IMG/VR virus record: IMGVR_UViG_3300032278_001946
Location: 1-21,401 of that record
Strand: one strand, 5' to 3'
DNA length: 21,401 bases
From: a virus
Under the pieces are notes generated by a model. That model was given only the letters and a program-made list of their open reading frames with translations, was not told the origin of the DNA and did not search any database. Made by a program: the position numbers and the translations under genes. This document shows, in pieces, positions 1,533 through 9,143 of this stretch. The first letter of the stretch is position 1. Each line of letters starts with the position of its first letter.

Positions 1533-2045
1533 TTAGCTATGCTGACTGAAAACATAGCAATTATCCGTGAAAGTGTATTCCATACTCCATTCATGTTCGA
1601 TGCTAGACCAATCAATGTGAGATTCTAGAAAATCTGGTATTTCATACAGACTATCAAACTGTTCTCGAACGAAATCAGAGAAGTAACTCCATTCGCCTTG
1701 GCATCGTTCCTCCATTTTCTGAATAAGATCATGTGCTGTTTCATTATTGGCGATAGATCCTACCATCTCGTTAAGATAATCGTACATCGCCATGTGGTCG
1801 ATATTTTGATACTCCATAATCTCCCAATAGATTGGGTTAATGAAGTGCTGACCAATCAAGTTGTATGGTATGTTTTCCCAGTCTTGGAAATCCAGTTCCA
1901 CATCCATCTCATCACTATGCAGTTTGTTGCAGTGGTTTATAAATTCTTCACTGCTACCAAAATCATTTAACGCAACCCATGAACCACCTAAATTCCCGTC
2001 TGCATATTTCAGACAACTACCAACGTATACTGATGCGTCTTTCAT
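1533..2045 (-). CDS. ardA: ArdA-type anti-restriction protein
   Basis: ArdA proteins are acidic dimers shaped like B-form DNA that occupy the DNA site of type I restriction-modification enzymes and so protect incoming DNA. At 170 aa the length is usual for the family. The typical ArdA pattern is present in order: an N-terminal YVGSCLKYADGNLGGSWVAL, then EEFINHCNKLHSDEMDVELDFQDWENIP at residues 34-61, a helical central part, and a C-terminal EIPDFLESHIDWSSIEHEW followed by a hydrophobic strand ending in YVFS. The ATG at 2045 follows AAAGGAG. It lies third in the leftward arm, immediately after host entry if that arm is early. The assignment rests on recognised sequence pattern; activity is not shown. 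Confidence 0.92.
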   Translation of the reverse strand: MKDASVYVGSCLKYADGNLGGSWVALNDFGSSEEFINHCNKLHSDEMDVELDFQDWENIPYNLIGQHFINPIYWEIMEYQNIDHMAMYDYLNEMVGSIANNETAHDLIQKMEERCQGEWSYFSDFVREQFDSLYEIPDFLESHIDWSSIEHEWSMEYTFTDNCYVFSQHS

Positions 2046-2396: not shown

Positions 2397-2690
2397 TTAC
2401 TTGATGTTAGTATCATCCCAACGTTGTGGAAATGTTTTGAAATGGGTTGTCGTTCTTCCTATCCTCGTTTCTAGCGATAGATTGGTACGTTTGAATGTTC
2501 TGCCTTTCGTAAGGTATTCCCATTCCTTTAAAACCCAATCTCGATCAGTTTTGACTATCTTGTGGACTCTTGAAACATTCCCAGAGTCCAGAGCAAAATC
2601 TTCCACAAAAATAATAGAGTACAATCCACGTCTTGCATCAGATGCTAACGTGAATTTTCCCCTTTGGTCTTGATATTCTACCATCATCAT
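2397..2690 (-). CDS. Unknown early protein, first gene of the left arm (97 aa)
   Basis: The ATG at 2690 lies seven bases after AAAGGAG. The next two codons are also ATG, so the exact start could be two codons later. The product is basic and soluble, with a beta-rich N-terminal half (FTLASDARRGLYSIIFVEDF) and a C-terminal half rich in Arg and Thr (GRTFKRTNLSLETRIGRTTT). I recognise no family. It is the only gene of the arm not preceded by the hairpin repeat. Instead it follows the long leader from the consensus promoter, so it should be the most highly expressed of the set. Confidence 0.75.
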   Translation of the reverse strand: MMMVEYQDQRGKFTLASDARRGLYSIIFVEDFALDSGNVSRVHKIVKTDRDWVLKEWEYLTKGRTFKRTNLSLETRIGRTTTHFKTFPQRWDDTNIK

Positions 2691-3016
2691 AATAATACTC
2701 CTTTGCTTGAGCAGGTTTGAAACAACCTAACCACTATCCCTTGATAATGTCGTAGAAGGTTATCGCCTTACTGCCTTATATATTCTAGCGCAATTTGTGT
2801 TATCCCAGCTACTCACTCACTCGCTTTCACTTGGTTCCCAGCCTATCAGGTTTGGCTATTCTTATGCTAGAGTCTTGTAAATCCCTGCCCTTAGTCGTTC
2901 CTGTATCTATCAGTAGCTGGCAACATCGTCACAATTACGTTTCCCAGTTGACCAAGGTTTTACTGCTTTGATGTACTGCTCTGTTTTTCGCTTTCGTTCT
3001 CCTGTCTGCTTTTGAT
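2691..3016 (-). other. Long untranslated leader of the leftward transcript
   Basis: No credible gene lies in this stretch of about 325 bases between the leftward promoter and the first ATG. On the transcribed strand, a perfect 9-nt complementary pair (CCAGCTACT at 2912-2920, AGTAGCTGG at 2805-2813) could close a domain of about 100 nt. A small 5-bp hairpin sits near the ribosome binding site (2713-2728). The start at about 3016 is inferred from the -10 position. A leader this long is unusual for a phage early gene and may have a regulatory RNA role. Confidence 0.5.
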
Positions 3017-3022
3017 ATCTCT

Positions 3023-3051
3023 ATTATACCAACGCATTTCTACGGTGTCAA
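3023..3051 (-). promoter_or_regulatory. Perfect-consensus sigma-70-type leftward promoter
   Basis: Read on the minus strand: TTGACA (3051-3046), a 17-bp spacer, then TATAAT (3028-3023). Both hexamers match the consensus exactly, at the optimal spacing. It points into the seven-gene left arm and would be recognised at once by host RNA polymerase, as expected for immediate-early transcription. Confidence 0.9.
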
Positions 3052-3123
3052 CTGCTTTCTACTCATTCAACGCAATTAATTTGAAATAGTTTCGTTTTTC
3101 TCACTTGGCATGATGTTTTTATA

Positions 3124-3152
3124 TTGATGATGTATCGCTTTTGTGGTATAAG
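3124..3152 (+). promoter_or_regulatory. Rightward extended -10 promoter for the replication genes
   Basis: TTGATG, a 17-bp spacer, then TATAAG, with TG one base upstream of the -10 (TGGTATAAG), an extended -10 form. Predicted transcription would begin near 3159, about 32 nt before the GTG start of the primase-helicase. It is back to back with the leftward promoter, with about 72 bp of AT-rich DNA between the two -35 elements. Confidence 0.7.
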
Positions 3153-3190
3153 TGTATAAGTAAAAAGAAAAGTCAAGAGGTGAAAATAAC

Positions 3191-6100
3191 GTGTTAAAGG
3201 ATTGCAATCTAAAGCCTACAGCGAGCTGTACCGCATGCGGTAAACCAGATTGGTGTATGGATTTCGTTAACCCAGCAGGGAATATTGAAGCGAACCTATG
3301 TCATCGTGTGCCTAGTGCTATGGAAGCGAAAACGGGCAATGGTTGGATACATTTTACTAACCAACAAACGGAATACATACCTAAGAAGATATCCAAAGGG
3401 ACAAAGTCTCCGAAACGGAATCCCAGACGTAAATCATGCAGTAAGACTACCGACAAGGTATTGAAAGCCTTGTGGAGCATCCTGAGCCTATCAGATAAGC
3501 ATCAGACCAACCTGATAGCACGTGGTGTAGCTGAGACATCGCAGTATCGTACCTACCCAGAAGGGAAAGCATTGCAACAAGCAACACGACAGATGAAGGA
3601 AAGGTTTAGTGCTGACCAGTTGCGTAAGGTTGCAGGATTCAGAAGGGCAAACGATGGTAGCATGTATCTCCCTCGCCTCAGTGGTATGCTGATCCCATGC
3701 GTAGACGCTACGGGTCGCTTCATAGGCTCACAGATCAGGCTATCCACAGACACCAAAAACAAGTATATCTGGTTCTCGAATTCAGACCGAAAGGCAGTCA
3801 CAAGTGGGACTCCGATCCACACCGCTCCACCACCCACAGACACGAAACCAGTAGAAAGAAAATCGAAGGAACTCTACCTTACCGAAGGAATTTTAAAAGC
3901 TGATATCACTGCCCAAGAACTAGGGATGGTCTGCCTTGGTTTAGCGGGTGTGAGTGCATATGACCGTCCCGAACTTAAAAACACGTTAACCTCTCTTATC
4001 GCTTTGCGAGGGACGGTCAATATTGCATTTGACATGGATCAGGACACTAATCCGTTAGTGAAAAAGGCGTTAGACAAACTCGCAACACATATAAGCTCAT
4101 GGGGATACAAAGTACGGTTCGCCAGATGGGACTCAACCTATAAAGGGATTGACGATTTTCTGGTACAAGCAAACTCTCCGAATATACAGTATGAACCGTA
4201 CTCCCCGCCAATAAGCATTAACTCCCTTAAAACCACCCCCACAATAGTTTTCGATGATGACGGTGAAGTTGTCAGGGAAAACGGTAAGATCGTTAAAAGG
4301 ATTCAGGAAAAAATCAGGGTGGTAGACAGTACTTTCATTTCAGAAGATGTTGAAGTGGATCTGGAAGGGTTAAGGAACTCTATGGGGACCATTATTACTG
4401 ATTTTGCTGTTTCGGGTGGTGGTAAAGGGTTATTAATGAGGGCTATCCCCGGACTCGGTAAAACCCATACCAGTCGAATTGTCTTGGAGTCCCTATCAGC
4501 TAAAGGAACTCTACGACCAGTATTCGCTATGCCTCGACATGATTTGATGGTTAACCTTAAAGATTGGCAGAGAATACGTCCACGACAACCTCGGTTACAG
4601 GAACAGCGAACTATCCCGTTACCTATCCTTCAGGAAAGGATCGAAGACGCTATCGAAGAGGCTCGTTATACAGGTAAGGTGAACTATGGAACTCTACCCA
4701 GTCTCTGTCATCAATGGGAACGGGCTAATTCATTAGCCTCCAGAGGATGGAACGTTGTAAGTAATCTCTGCATGACGGATTGTGATATAGGACTGGGTGA
4801 TTGTTTATATTTCAATCAGTTTGAACAGGAAGGGAAACTGGCAACGGTACATGAAACGTTGTTCATCCCACGCTTTTGTAACTCTATATTCGGTCCAGAA
4901 GAAGAAAATATTGATGGTTGGCAAGATACAACGCCAAGATTACCTAGTGTAGCGGTCATCGATGAGCCTTCCCCGTCCAAATGGATCAGAACTACCGAGA
5001 TAAAGGAAGAAGACCTTACTTTTGCTATTAGTAAATGTTGGAGTGATGACGTTTTGGAGCTTCTGAAGGTTGTTCGGGAAGGATATGAGACCTTTAAACG
5101 GGATATGGGTGGTGCACGTACACTTGGTGGTAAGGAATTAATGGATATCCTTATCAAAACAGCAGGGAATCAGGAAATATTAGAAGAATTGATACGTAAA
5201 TGCGAGCCAGACAAGACAATTAAGAACGAAACCGTACTCGTTAAGTTCGATTCGTTGACTGTTAACAGGAAATCGGACTTTTCTATCGTTATAGATGGGA
5301 AAAGCTACTATGTTGACTCAGCAAAAGCAAAAATTCACAGCAAAAACCTACTGGAAGTAGAAAAAGTATACGCTATCATCAAAGAACTTCCCATCCATAG
5401 CGAATTTGACGATAAGGACGGAGTTCCGTTGAATTTTCAGAGTGATCTGGTCACTGTACTGGATCGGGAACTCAGGAATTATGATGAAGATGGATATAAT
5501 TCCTCGATTTACTTTGATGTAGCAGAAGGGATACGACTAAATATTAAAAACGACCTTGCGGTCCCTTCGCATACACCATTAATCTGTCTGGATGGACAGG
5601 GAGACCCGAAACTGCTGGAGATGCTAACGGGCAGAACCTTTGAAGAGTGGTCATACGACAAACTACCTGATACATCTATAGTCCAACTCGTTGATGGTGC
5701 GTATGGCGTGACTTCTCTTTGGAACTCTAAGACTAAAGCACCTAAGTTTTCCTTAGAGAAGTTACTCGATACTATTGTTTTCCCTAAAGTGGAAGAAAAT
5801 CCAGAAGAATGTCTCATAGTAACGTGGAAAGTTATCGCTGATTACCTTAAAACCCTTCAGGATAAGGGCGAGTTGTCGGGTGCGGTAGGGATCGAACATT
5901 ATGGTAATCTCAGAGGGTCTAACGAATATGAAGATAGGGAAACCGTTATTCTTTTAGGGACACCCAATATCAATACCGATCAACTTGAAGAACAGGTTAA
6001 TGCACTCTTTGTCGGTGGCGATAGAGTTAATATGGATACCCATAGGGTTTGGGAACAATACGATTACCGTGACATTAACGGTAAAGGATATGAGGTGCAA

Positions 6101-6817
6101 GTCAGACGCTATCAGGATGAACGAGTTGAACGAATGGCCCGTATTTATCGGGAATCAGAAATGGTTCAAGCAGCTCATCGTGTCCGTCCCGTTGTCAATT
6201 CGGGTAATCGAGAGATAATCATTCTCAGTAACATACCTATCCCGCAACTTGCACCCACTCATTTAACCTCTGCCGAAGAATTAGCCAAATCATCTATGCC
6301 GATTAACCCGACTTCGATTAAAACATATAAGGCTTTATTACGGGAAGCGACACGTATATCGAAAGATATCATGTTAGAGTTCGGTTATATACGAGCAACG
6401 TTACTCCAATCCGCACTACGAGAGTGGTATGACGATACCGTTAATAATAATACCTTTGATGATAATAGCGGTTCACTGACAGTGACTGCGTTTCCTGTGT
6501 TACGAACACTAGAAAGATGGGTTCGTGACATAGCTTATGAGGAAGGATGGGATAGTTTACGGTGTACCGTAACCAATCGATTCGATTTTAATGGTTCGGG
6601 AGCAGTAAGTATCATTATTTTCCATGATGGAGTGATGGGTATAGAAGATATTTTGGAATATGCTAAGGCAGATTACATAAAAATGAAGGGTTTGACCGAA
6701 GAAGAGGTTGAAGACTTAATCTTTGACTGGGAATTCTTTAACGATGATATTGACCCGTACTCAATCCCTGTCATAGACAGTAGTGAACCGCCAGATGAAT
6801 GGTACGATAGGCTATAA
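3191..6817 (+). CDS. Phage primase-helicase (zinc finger, TOPRIM-like, P-loop helicase)
   Basis: A 1208-residue replication protein that probably primes and unwinds phage DNA. An N-terminal zinc motif has Cys13, 16, 22 and 37. A TOPRIM-like domain of the DUF3854 type spans about residues 150-330, with LYLTEG (Glu232), FDMDQD (Asp281, 283, 285) and GIDDFL (Asp321, 322). The P-loop PGLGKTHT is at 420-427, the Walker B VAVIDEP at 587-593, and a motif VI-like QAAHRVRP at 993-1000. Between Walker A and B lies a Cys cluster (506, 527, 531, 538) suggestive of a zinc or iron-sulfur insertion. The GTG start has AGAGGTG eight bases upstream. It is first in the rightward operon, ahead of an SSB-like gene. 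The C-terminal 200 residues are unassigned. Primase-helicase is inferred from motifs, and replication initiator-helicase is the alternative. Confidence 0.9.
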   Translation: MLKDCNLKPTASCTACGKPDWCMDFVNPAGNIEANLCHRVPSAMEAKTGNGWIHFTNQQTEYIPKKISKGTKSPKRNPRRKSCSKTTDKVLKALWSILSLSDKHQTNLIARGVAETSQYRTYPEGKALQQATRQMKERFSADQLRKVAGFRRANDGSMYLPRLSGMLIPCVDATGRFIGSQIRLSTDTKNKYIWFSNSDRKAVTSGTPIHTAPPPTDTKPVERKSKELYLTEGILKADITAQELGMVCLGLAGVSAYDRPELKNTLTSLIALRGTVNIAFDMDQDTNPLVKKALDKLATHISSWGYKVRFARWDSTYKGIDDFLVQANSPNIQYEPYSPPISINSLKTTPTIVFDDDGEVVRENGKIVKRIQEKIRVVDSTFISEDVEVDLEGLRNSMGTIITDFAVSGGGKGLLMRAIPGLGKTHTSRIVLESLSAKGTLRPVFAMPRHDLMVNLKDWQRIRPRQPRLQEQRTIPLPILQERIEDAIEEARYTGKVNYGTLPSLCHQWERANSLASRGWNVVSNLCMTDCDIGLGDCLYFNQFEQEGKLATVHETLFIPRFCNSIFGPEEENIDGWQDTTPRLPSVAVIDEPSPSKWIRTTEIKEEDLTFAISKCWSDDVLELLKVVREGYETFKRDMGGARTLGGKELMDILIKTAGNQEILEELIRKCEPDKTIKNETVLVKFDSLTVNRKSDFSIVIDGKSYYVDSAKAKIHSKNLLEVEKVYAIIKELPIHSEFDDKDGVPLNFQSDLVTVLDRELRNYDEDGYNSSIYFDVAEGIRLNIKNDLAVPSHTPLICLDGQGDPKLLEMLTGRTFEEWSYDKLPDTSIVQLVDGAYGVTSLWNSKTKAPKFSLEKLLDTIVFPKVEENPEECLIVTWKVIADYLKTLQDKGELSGAVGIEHYGNLRGSNEYEDRETVILLGTPNINTDQLEEQVNALFVGGDRVNMDTHRVWEQYDYRDINGKGYEVQVRRYQDERVERMARIYRESEMVQAAHRVRPVVNSGNREIIILSNIPIPQLAPTHLTSAEELAKSSMPINPTSIKTYKALLREATRISKDIMLEFGYIRATLLQSALREWYDDTVNNNTFDDNSGSLTVTAFPVLRTLERWVRDIAYEEGWDSLRCTVTNRFDFNGSGAVSIIIFHDGVMGIEDILEYAKADYIKMKGLTEEEVEDLIFDWEFFNDDIDPYSIPVIDSSEPPDEWYDRL

Positions 6818-7100: not shown

Positions 7101-7508
7101 ATGGAAGATCAATTTGTGATTAGCTTTAACGACTCCCTTCACCCGGAAGGAGAGTTTGAAGGGGTGATCGCTGATGTTGAGGTAGACGAAGGTCAGTACG
7201 GGAGACAATACAAGTTTCATGTTGATACAAGCGAGTCTGAACGTCCACTATGGATATGGACACAACTGAAGACTGGCGAGACCAGTAAACTTGGAAGGCT
7301 TTTAATGGCTTTAAAGCGGTGTAACTATAAGGATTTACTAGAGTTCCTTAAAGACGATGACCATGAGTTCGATGTACGGAACTCTATCGGAGCTTCGTTT
7401 ATGGTCACAGTTACTCATAAAGAGAACCAAGCGGGCCAGATAAGGGCAAACATAACAGATTTCGGACCCCTTGAAGGTGAAGAAGGGCAAGAGGAGATAC
7501 CATTTTAA
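7101..7508 (+). CDS. SSB-like single-stranded DNA-binding protein
   Basis: A 135-residue protein ending GEEGQEEIPF. That acidic tail with a terminal Ile-Pro-Phe is the hallmark of bacterial and phage SSB proteins, and it docks partner enzymes such as helicases and recombination proteins. The body (FEGVIADVEVDEGQYGRQYKFHV, then SFMVTVTHKE near residue 100) has alternating strands compatible with an OB fold, but it lacks the ordinary E. coli SSB signature, so it belongs to a diverged phage type. AAGGAG lies ten bases upstream of the ATG. The stop overlaps the next ATG (TAATG). Function is inferred from the tail, size and neighbours. Confidence 0.72.
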   Translation: MEDQFVISFNDSLHPEGEFEGVIADVEVDEGQYGRQYKFHVDTSESERPLWIWTQLKTGETSKLGRLLMALKRCNYKDLLEFLKDDDHEFDVRNSIGASFMVTVTHKENQAGQIRANITDFGPLEGEEGQEEIPF

Positions 7509-8752
7509 TGGATGACAAAAAGATTAATACCCCTACAATATATCTTGCGGGAACCCATAGTAAGGAGTGGAGAGGTGAAGTTTGCAATTCTTTTCAGATA
7601 GAGGATAAAGCTAAGGATAATAACAACCTGCTATGGTCATCAGATTTTTCTGTTTTGGACAGGTTCAATGGTGTGGGGCTGAAAAGGTTCCATGAAGATT
7701 TTAATAATGATTTTGACGAGGTTTCTGATTCGTATGGAATATGCAATTCGGTTCGTCAGGCTAAAGAGAAATCGGATCTTATATTTATTTATATATCTAC
7801 ACCTCCCGACCCTTTAACCTTTTTAGAGGCAGGGGTGATTTTGGGACAGGATAGAATCCCGATTGAGGGGTTCGATACGGAGAGGTCACATGCCAGAGTC
7901 GTGGTGTACATGGATGAATCTGCACAAAAAAGAATCCCGAAAGACCCTGTCTACAGGTACTTGTCGGGACTGACTGCTTATTCTCCTCCTGTGACAATGA
8001 AGGACGCTTTAAGGAATTGGATATATAAATTTAACTATGACCTGCTTTTACATCCAGATAGTCCGATAGAGAAAGTGTTTTTTGAGTATTGGCTGGAAGA
8101 GATGTGGGCAGATCTGGATAGCGGGACTCATTTGGAACCTAACTATCCTGTATATAACGCTGTAGCAGGAAAGAATTTCTATATAGATTTCGCTCATCCT
8201 GAAAGTCAGGTCGCTGTTGAGCTTGACGGGATGGGACATTTCGGTCAGAGTGTACCTCAAGACCCCGAACATGAAAACGGGGACCCGGCAAGTTATCGGA
8301 AATATTTGGATGAAGATAAAATCCAGAAACATTATCAACGCCACCGATTATTACAGGAAGATGGGTGGGAACTGGTAAGGTTTACGGGCCGAGAAGTGAA
8401 TAACAATACTGTAGCTTGTTGCGAATTTGTCCAGAAGGTTATTAGGTCAAGGATGGGAGTGGTGAAGACCCCTGACCCCGGATTGCTTCAGACAGGCAAA
8501 GAACTGAAACGGTTGCGTGTAGATGCGGGGTTAACCCAAAAGCAAGCCTCGGAAGTTACGGGTCTGCAAAGAAGAAGGTTCTCAGATTTTGAGCGAGGGT
8601 TGCTGTATCTGCCTTCTGATTCAGAGGCGTTACTGAGGAAGAAGTATCACGAATTAATCCAACCTAAGCTGGATCAAATCTTAGAAGAAGTTCCACTAAC
8701 GTACTCTGATGAGGATAGGCTTGTTGAGCAAGAGCCAACGGGTACGGGTTGA
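7508..8752 (+). CDS. Three-domain protein: deoxyribosyltransferase-like, PD-(D/E)XK nuclease, XRE HTH
   Basis: Three parts are visible in 414 residues. Residues 9-135 resemble the nucleoside 2-deoxyribosyltransferase-like fold: TIYLAG at 10-15, then SVRQAKEKSDLIFIYIS at 81-97 and FLEAGVILG with Glu107. Residues 184-312 resemble DUF559/Vsr-type nucleases: SPIE (Glu188), YIDFAH (Asp227), VAVELDGMGH (Glu238-x-Asp240), and GWELVRFTG at 286-294. Residues 329-366 form a Cro/C1-type helix-turn-helix (ELKRLRVDAGLTQKQASEVTG). Catalytic residues of the nuclease appear intact. It is translationally coupled to the SSB-like gene and overlaps rusA, placing it in a replication/recombination operon. Possible roles are base or nucleotide modification, host DNA attack or a defence function; none is shown. 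The nuclease domain is the surest call and the first domain the least sure. Confidence 0.75.
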   Translation: MDDKKINTPTIYLAGTHSKEWRGEVCNSFQIEDKAKDNNNLLWSSDFSVLDRFNGVGLKRFHEDFNNDFDEVSDSYGICNSVRQAKEKSDLIFIYISTPPDPLTFLEAGVILGQDRIPIEGFDTERSHARVVVYMDESAQKRIPKDPVYRYLSGLTAYSPPVTMKDALRNWIYKFNYDLLLHPDSPIEKVFFEYWLEEMWADLDSGTHLEPNYPVYNAVAGKNFYIDFAHPESQVAVELDGMGHFGQSVPQDPEHENGDPASYRKYLDEDKIQKHYQRHRLLQEDGWELVRFTGREVNNNTVACCEFVQKVIRSRMGVVKTPDPGLLQTGKELKRLRVDAGLTQKQASEVTGLQRRRFSDFERGLLYLPSDSEALLRKKYHELIQPKLDQILEEVPLTYSDEDRLVEQEPTGTG

Positions 8753-9143
8753 TCTCAAGAATTTAAAGTTCCCGTCGCTTAATGAGATGTACGGGGGGAA
8801 CCATTTCGTCAGGGCTAAGATTAAGAAAACATTTGGGATAGCATTAAAAGCAATATTCAGGCGAGGATTTCGTCCTGTTAACCAGTATCCCTTTAAGATC
8901 CAGTTTACTTGGTATTTCCCTGATTTAAGGACAGATCCTGATAATCGTGCTGGGGTTGGACAGAAAATAGTGCTTGACTCTTTACAGGATGCTGGCATTA
9001 TTAGGAACGATACCTTGAAGGATGTAAACTATATTTCACATTCTTTTAGTCTCGATAGGAAAAATCCGAGATTAATAATCAGGTTAGATGAACCGCAACC
9101 TGAAAAGGAAGAAAGTTCGGATAACCAGTTAAGTTTTTTATAA
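8709..9143 (+). CDS. rusA: RusA-family Holliday junction resolvase
   Basis: RusA proteins are small dimeric metal-dependent nucleases that cut four-way junctions formed in phage recombination and replication. The family core is present: FPSLNEMYGGN near residue 21, DPDNR with Asp76 and Asp78, VLDSLQDAGII with Asp90, and NDTLKDV with Asp101, matching the conserved acidic residues. At 144 aa it is slightly longer than usual, with a polar tail (EKEESSDNQLSFL). The ATG at 8709 overlaps the previous gene by 44 nt. In-frame TTG codons at 8721 and 8724 are alternative starts and the true one is uncertain. Its neighbours fit a role in resolving concatemers before packaging. Confidence 0.88.
   Translation: MRIGLLSKSQRVRVDLKNLKFPSLNEMYGGNHFVRAKIKKTFGIALKAIFRRGFRPVNQYPFKIQFTWYFPDLRTDPDNRAGVGQKIVLDSLQDAGIIRNDTLKDVNYISHSFSLDRKNPRLIIRLDEPQPEKEESSDNQLSFL

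Follow-up and report, generated by a model that had tools for sequence, protein, structure and literature searches.

A three-domain gene in a replication operon

The window, that is, the whole 21,401-nucleotide stretch of uncultured-phage DNA analysed here, encodes on its plus strand a 414-residue protein in which a deoxyribosyltransferase-like (NDT/DrHyd-like) domain, a predicted DUF559/Vsr-type nuclease domain and a predicted XRE-type helix-turn-helix (HTH) follow one another in a single reading frame (Table 1). The frame is preceded by a ribosome-binding-like AGGAG, and its start codon shares one base with the stop codon of the upstream SSB-like gene in a TAATG junction. This overlap, together with a 3′ end that runs into the gene for a RusA-like resolvase, makes the gene part of a replication/recombination operon. 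The first large gene of the operon encodes a TOPRIM-like protein that also has a weak helicase-loader-like match and is likely a primase/helicase. As no terminator-like site was found on the plus strand between 2600 and 9300, the nuclease gene looks like an ordinary member of this operon.

Table 1. Features of the window around the nuclease gene.
Feature	Position	Strand	Details
ArdA-type antirestriction protein	1533-2045	-	PF07275, E 3.2e-13, over cut-off
Sigma-70 consensus promoter	3051-3023	-	12/12, TG before the -10 hexamer
TOPRIM-like (DUF3854) protein	3191-6817	+	1208 aa; PF12965, E 1.8e-12
SSB/replication-initiation-like gene	7101-7508	+	phrog_378, E 2.6e-3; NF046043, E 1e-4; both weak
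NDT-like + DUF559 nuclease + XRE HTH gene	7508-8752	+	414 aa, ATG start
NDT/DrHyd-like domain	7532-8029	+	residues 9-174, core 9-115
E107, predicted nucleophile, in FLEAG	7826-7828	+	conserved with NDTs
DUF559/Vsr-type PD-(D/E)XK nuclease domain	8057-8449	+	residues 184-314; PF04480
XRE-type helix-turn-helix	8489-8647	+	about residues 328-380; HTH_31, PF13560
RusA-like Holliday junction resolvase	8709-9143	+	phrog_1682, E 1.9e-24

Comparison with four related IMG/VR contigs (L001-L004) showed that the window lacks about 500 bp (at about 8727-8736), including a 165-aa ORF that lies directly downstream of the nuclease gene in all four and is followed by RusA in L002 and L003. It is because this segment is missing that the RusA start (8709) falls inside the nuclease gene, whose last few codons are altered by the same loss. 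We rejected a toxin-antitoxin reading, as the neighbouring 165-aa ORF is dispensable: it is lost in the window with the nuclease intact.

Upstream of the operon, the divergent region carries the promoter listed in Table 1, which points toward the leftward genes. The phage also encodes an ArdA-type protein, suggesting that it encounters host DNA-targeting defences.

The N-terminal part resembles deoxyribosyltransferases

Residues 9-115 matched PF15891 with an E of 4.5e-3 for the whole protein and 5.1e-4 for the domain alone, both below the curated Pfam cut-off. For comparison, we gathered NDT-family proteins from genomes via PF15891, plus a set from viral contigs. When a profile of the genomic NDTs was run with hmmsearch against 2,605 sequences, including 2,000 domain shuffles, the phage copies ranked first, with modest scores that were best for L002 and L003 and weakest for the window's own copy. 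Alignment of the N-terminal domain with NDT relatives by hhalign gave a Prob of 84 (P 7.1e-6) when the set included a Streptomyces canus plasmid protein, described below, and a Prob of 27 (P 6.5e-4) without it.

In a 28-row alignment that included viral NDTs, Y12, D101, T104, E107 and G109 were invariant, and a 31-row alignment likewise showed D101, T104, E107 and G109 without variation. From the aligned motif and established enzyme knowledge, we take E107 to be the counterpart of Glu98, the nucleophile of the Lactobacillus leichmannii NDT, and D101 presumably corresponds to the Asp six residues before that nucleophile. By contrast, Asp72 of the L. leichmannii enzyme, which we take to be a catalytic, base-contacting residue, has no equivalent in the phage domain: the position is Val or Ile (V82/I82) in the window's lineage, a departure from catalytically typical NDTs. 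About half of the aligned viral NDTs have Cys or Asn at the same position. The initial annotation had proposed an enzyme that senses or makes altered nucleotides; given the Val/Ile at this position and that no nucleotide-modification gene was recognised nearby, the making of such nucleotides finds no support, and the domain may sense rather than make them.

With four near-identical rows as input, an AlphaFold2 model of the whole protein reached a pLDDT of 36. A model of the N-terminal domain, built on an alignment whose rows included NDTs, was also of low confidence (pLDDT 48.6). Searched with this NDT-seeded model, Foldseek returned only deoxyribosyltransferases as best PDB matches (E 2e-4, TM 0.35-0.52); since NDT rows were fed into the model, these matches are support rather than proof. 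The statistics are weak to moderate and the NDT-seeded model is of low confidence; on this evidence the N-terminal part is a predicted member of the NDT/DrHyd superfamily.

An intact predicted nuclease domain under purifying selection

For the middle of the protein, PF04480 (DUF559) scored 24.0-27.6 bits against a Pfam cut-off of 20.6, and PF18741 (MTES_1575) matched as well, below its cut-off. The nuclease motif is intact, with E188, D227, E238, D240 and H244 all kept, supporting the prediction of a DUF559/Vsr-like PD-(D/E)XK nuclease. The C-terminal part scored 27.7 bits with PF13560 (HTH_31; cut-off 27) and had phmmer matches to XRE/C-protein structures.

The full fusion is intact in three further IMG/VR contigs (88-96% identical), a fourth carries its 3′ part, and the gene lies in the same place in all of them. 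Three intact copies and a 3′ fragment elsewhere in IMG/VR rule out an assembly error, which the initial annotation had named as something that would refute it. Its description of one protein joining the three domains also held: the ORF is exact and the Pfam domains occur in that order. Asp227, Glu238 and Asp240, the IYLAG start and the acidic residue of FLEAG (E107), all of which it had pointed out, are invariant across the four full-length copies, and the HTH it had called well formed exceeds the family cut-off.

Selection on the full-length copies was purifying, with dN/dS well below 1 in every domain. In comparisons with enough changes, the N-terminal domain had dN/dS values of 0.28-0.6, the nuclease about 0.1-0.2 and the HTH about 0.1, so that in most comparisons the nuclease and HTH were the most constrained parts and the N-terminal domain the least. 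The N-terminal domain of L001 is identical to that of the window, yet its nuclease is closer to those of L002 and L003; this mosaic looks as if parts had been exchanged by recombination. The selection pattern and the domain exchange would fit a fixed cutting activity joined to a faster-evolving ligand or recognition part.

In a 64.9-kb relative (G002), whose ends overlap, the final 40 bases recurring near the start, the operon is also present and leads into genes that match the terminase, portal and capsid genes of the window. The same contig encodes a tryptophan-halogenase family protein (L018:7093-8253; PF04820, E 2e-32) and, elsewhere, glycosyltransferase, methyltransferase and radical-SAM genes. 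A single ORF of 4,258 aa spans its positions 38102-50878, and its counterpart in a further relative (G003) has 4,275 aa.

A two-domain relative on a Streptomyces plasmid

Searching plasmids by tblastn, we found a 301-aa Streptomyces canus protein annotated as 'DUF559 domain-containing protein' (WP_331722838; plasmid NZ_CP108301.1), in which an NDT domain is likewise followed by a DUF559/MTES_1575 nuclease. PF05014 matches its N-terminal part over the cut-off and PF15891 just below it. The nuclease is 30% identical to that of the phage protein (E 6e-15), and the equivalents of Y12, T104 and E107 and of E188, D227, E238, D240 and H244 are kept. In contrast to the phage protein, it has no C-terminal HTH, and the residue at the D101 position (D92 in L. 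leichmannii numbering) is Ala and that at the D72 position Cys. The initial annotation knew of no described phage system with this order of domains and had suggested profile searches for it. The three-part protein is indeed undescribed in our searches, but this kind of fusion does have a relative, the NDT-DUF559 pair in S. canus, which lacks the HTH.

The settings also differ: the S. canus gene lies on a bacterial linear plasmid near an HNH-helicase and TcmP, with no obvious replication module. Its neighbours (L098; the protein itself at L031:2416-3321) encode an HNH-DEAD helicase, a 443-aa unknown protein, a DUF5131/Gp37 protein and TcmP, and the DUF5131/Gp37 protein matches the PADLOC candidate PDC-M41B. 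The neighbourhood looks like a candidate conflict island rather than a metabolic one, with this single case possibly a coincidence.

Relatives of the 414-aa protein were absent from 50,697 phage records searched by tblastn, and further NDT-DUF559 proteins from 300 Bacillota and 297 Bacteroidota genomes, a sample outside the Actinomycetota, the phylum of S. canus. The Bacillota and Bacteroidota searches did yield DUF559 proteins, with no N-terminal NDT motif in those read out. Scans of viral contigs for YLAGTHSxxWR and VELDGMGH returned the same phages only, and a scan of genome contigs with the family alignment confirmed nothing; two genome-contig matches to the motifs were non-coding chance matches. 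We also discarded a 24% tblastn match in faecal phage MT836349, which has stops in every frame, and a match on a Methylophaga plasmid, a 429-bp DUF559 gene too short for an NDT domain. No description of an NDT-nuclease-HTH protein was found in the literature searched, with most subscription papers outside reach. Since the NDT-like plus nuclease order is repeated in a plasmid protein, the fusion seems to be genuine, rare and so far undescribed.

Likeness to described systems

The N-terminal domain shares the pattern Y...D..T..E.G with the L. leichmannii NDT (1f8x), a C. thermalis NDT (8pqq), DNPH1, YtoQ (8of6) and the PF15891-like 4mcj, and in the model it appears to have their common Rossmannoid strand and helix order; unlike the phage protein, these enzymes stand alone, with neither nuclease nor HTH. 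DUF559/MTES_1575 Vsr-like REase effectors share the PD-(D/E)XK-type core with its E, D, ExD and H motif. They occur alone or fused to helicases, HEPN and other domains, whereas a described fusion to an NDT was not found. MTES_1575 is named as a Vsr-like REase in a survey of HEPN proteins, and conflict systems are known to use both this nuclease and the NDT domain as modules (PMC3710099). Fusions of AbiJ-NTD1 to NDT are one of the nearest themes.

Retron effectors carry NDT and winged-helix labels (PMC12548924, PMC12887533), and the Retron-Eco1-type NDT effector resembles the phage protein in uniting NDT-like and DNA-binding domains within one system; unlike it, the Retron-Eco1 system includes a reverse transcriptase and an ncRNA and lacks a nuclease domain. 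Restriction nucleases fused to HTH control proteins also exist (PMC3850674). One, CR.NsoJS138I, likewise joins a nuclease to an XRE-type regulator, but is partnered by a methyltransferase and lacks an NDT domain. On the nucleotide side, DmtZ is a phage NDT-Dut fusion with a role in nucleotide metabolism (PMC12884076). Inactive members of the TIR-DrHyd-SLOG class act as nucleotide sensors, and a survey of viral NAD and ADP-ribose systems reported that DrHyd is rare in viruses, with predictions limited to ADP-ribosyl cyclases (PMC9503650).

Possible functions of the fusion

Our preferred reading, which we hold tentatively, is that the protein could be a phage early-operon DNase, set by the ligand of its NDT-like domain, steered by its HTH and most likely acting against non-phage DNA. 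Ligand gating, substrate, target and purpose of the 414-aa protein we infer as follows. The ligand of the N-terminal domain, a (deoxy)nucleoside, a nucleotide or an NAD-like molecule, would be bound and perhaps cleaved, and the ligand state of the domain would set when the DUF559 nuclease acts. The HTH would direct the protein to particular DNA or regulate its own operon. Produced during replication alongside the SSB-like protein and RusA, the nuclease would most probably cut DNA other than the phage genome being copied: the host chromosome, a plasmid or competing phage DNA. In favour of this reading are the intact nuclease and NDT motifs, tight operon coupling and the conflict-like neighbourhood of the S. 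canus gene; against an attack role, the location in a replication module makes DNA processing equally natural.

Such processing is the main rival, rather unlikely in our estimate: a nuclease that serves phage replication or recombination, nicking DNA or processing ends, for instance, with the SSB-like protein and RusA, in which the NDT-like domain would play a structural or ligand-binding part and the HTH would bind an origin or operator. Wherever the context of the copies is known, the gene sits between the SSB-like gene and RusA with overlapping frames, and the strong constraint on nuclease and HTH would also be expected. However, we found no iteron-type repeat array in the divergent region (2680-3200), replication modules usually have no need of a deoxyribosyltransferase-like domain, and the S. 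canus relative lies outside any obvious replication module.

It is improbable that the protein is a nucleotide-salvage enzyme whose nuclease degrades host DNA while its NDT domain reworks the (deoxy)nucleotides set free, to supply phage DNA synthesis. Phage NDTs with roles in nucleotide metabolism are known, including DmtZ (PMC12884076), but the D72-equivalent is lost in the window's lineage, both the D72- and D92-equivalents are changed in S. canus, and no nucleotide-metabolism gene was recognised nearby, with part of the ORFs of the 64.9-kb relative profiled. An HTH would moreover be superfluous in such an enzyme.

We consider a free-standing homing endonuclease that acquired extra domains decidedly improbable. 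Annotated phage homing endonucleases do include DUF559/Vsr-like nucleases, and a PADLOC homing-endonuclease model matches the S. canus relative weakly; yet in the small sample of members found, the gene always holds the same position with frames overlapping its neighbours, and no empty site was seen among the relatives (gene present in all, n=4). A defence effector of restriction or retron type that the phage carries as cargo, which would echo the NDT plus DNA-binding theme of retron effectors and the fusions of control proteins to restriction nucleases, is highly improbable: neither a reverse transcriptase (PF00078) nor a DNA methyltransferase of the two families searched (PF01555, PF00145) was matched in four records (the window and three related ones, including the 64.9-kb relative), which makes a retron or ordinary restriction-modification unlikely, and the possible partner, the 165-aa downstream ORF, is lost in the window.

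Extending the preferred reading of a ligand-set DNase, a broader and doubtful proposal is that NDT-DUF559 proteins, with or without an HTH, might form a so far undescribed class of DNA nucleases, gated by a ligand within a single chain and present in phages and bacterial plasmids, which the phage would turn against the DNA of its host or of a competitor. By reading or destroying a signal of the (deoxy)nucleotide or NAD type, the NDT/DrHyd domain would switch the Vsr-like nuclease. If true, a single phage-encoded chain would couple nucleotide sensing or cleavage directly to the cutting of DNA, and the phage and plasmid proteins would offer two separate starting points for study.

Other arrangements of the domain were also seen. 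A nuclease fusion was visible in 0 of 68 viral NDT loci. Four viral loci (L161, L165, L166 and L167) encode proteins of about 400 aa with a long N-terminal extension and the NDT at the C terminus, and two bacterial loci, L085 and L096, share this build and resemble fusions of PfkB with NDT.
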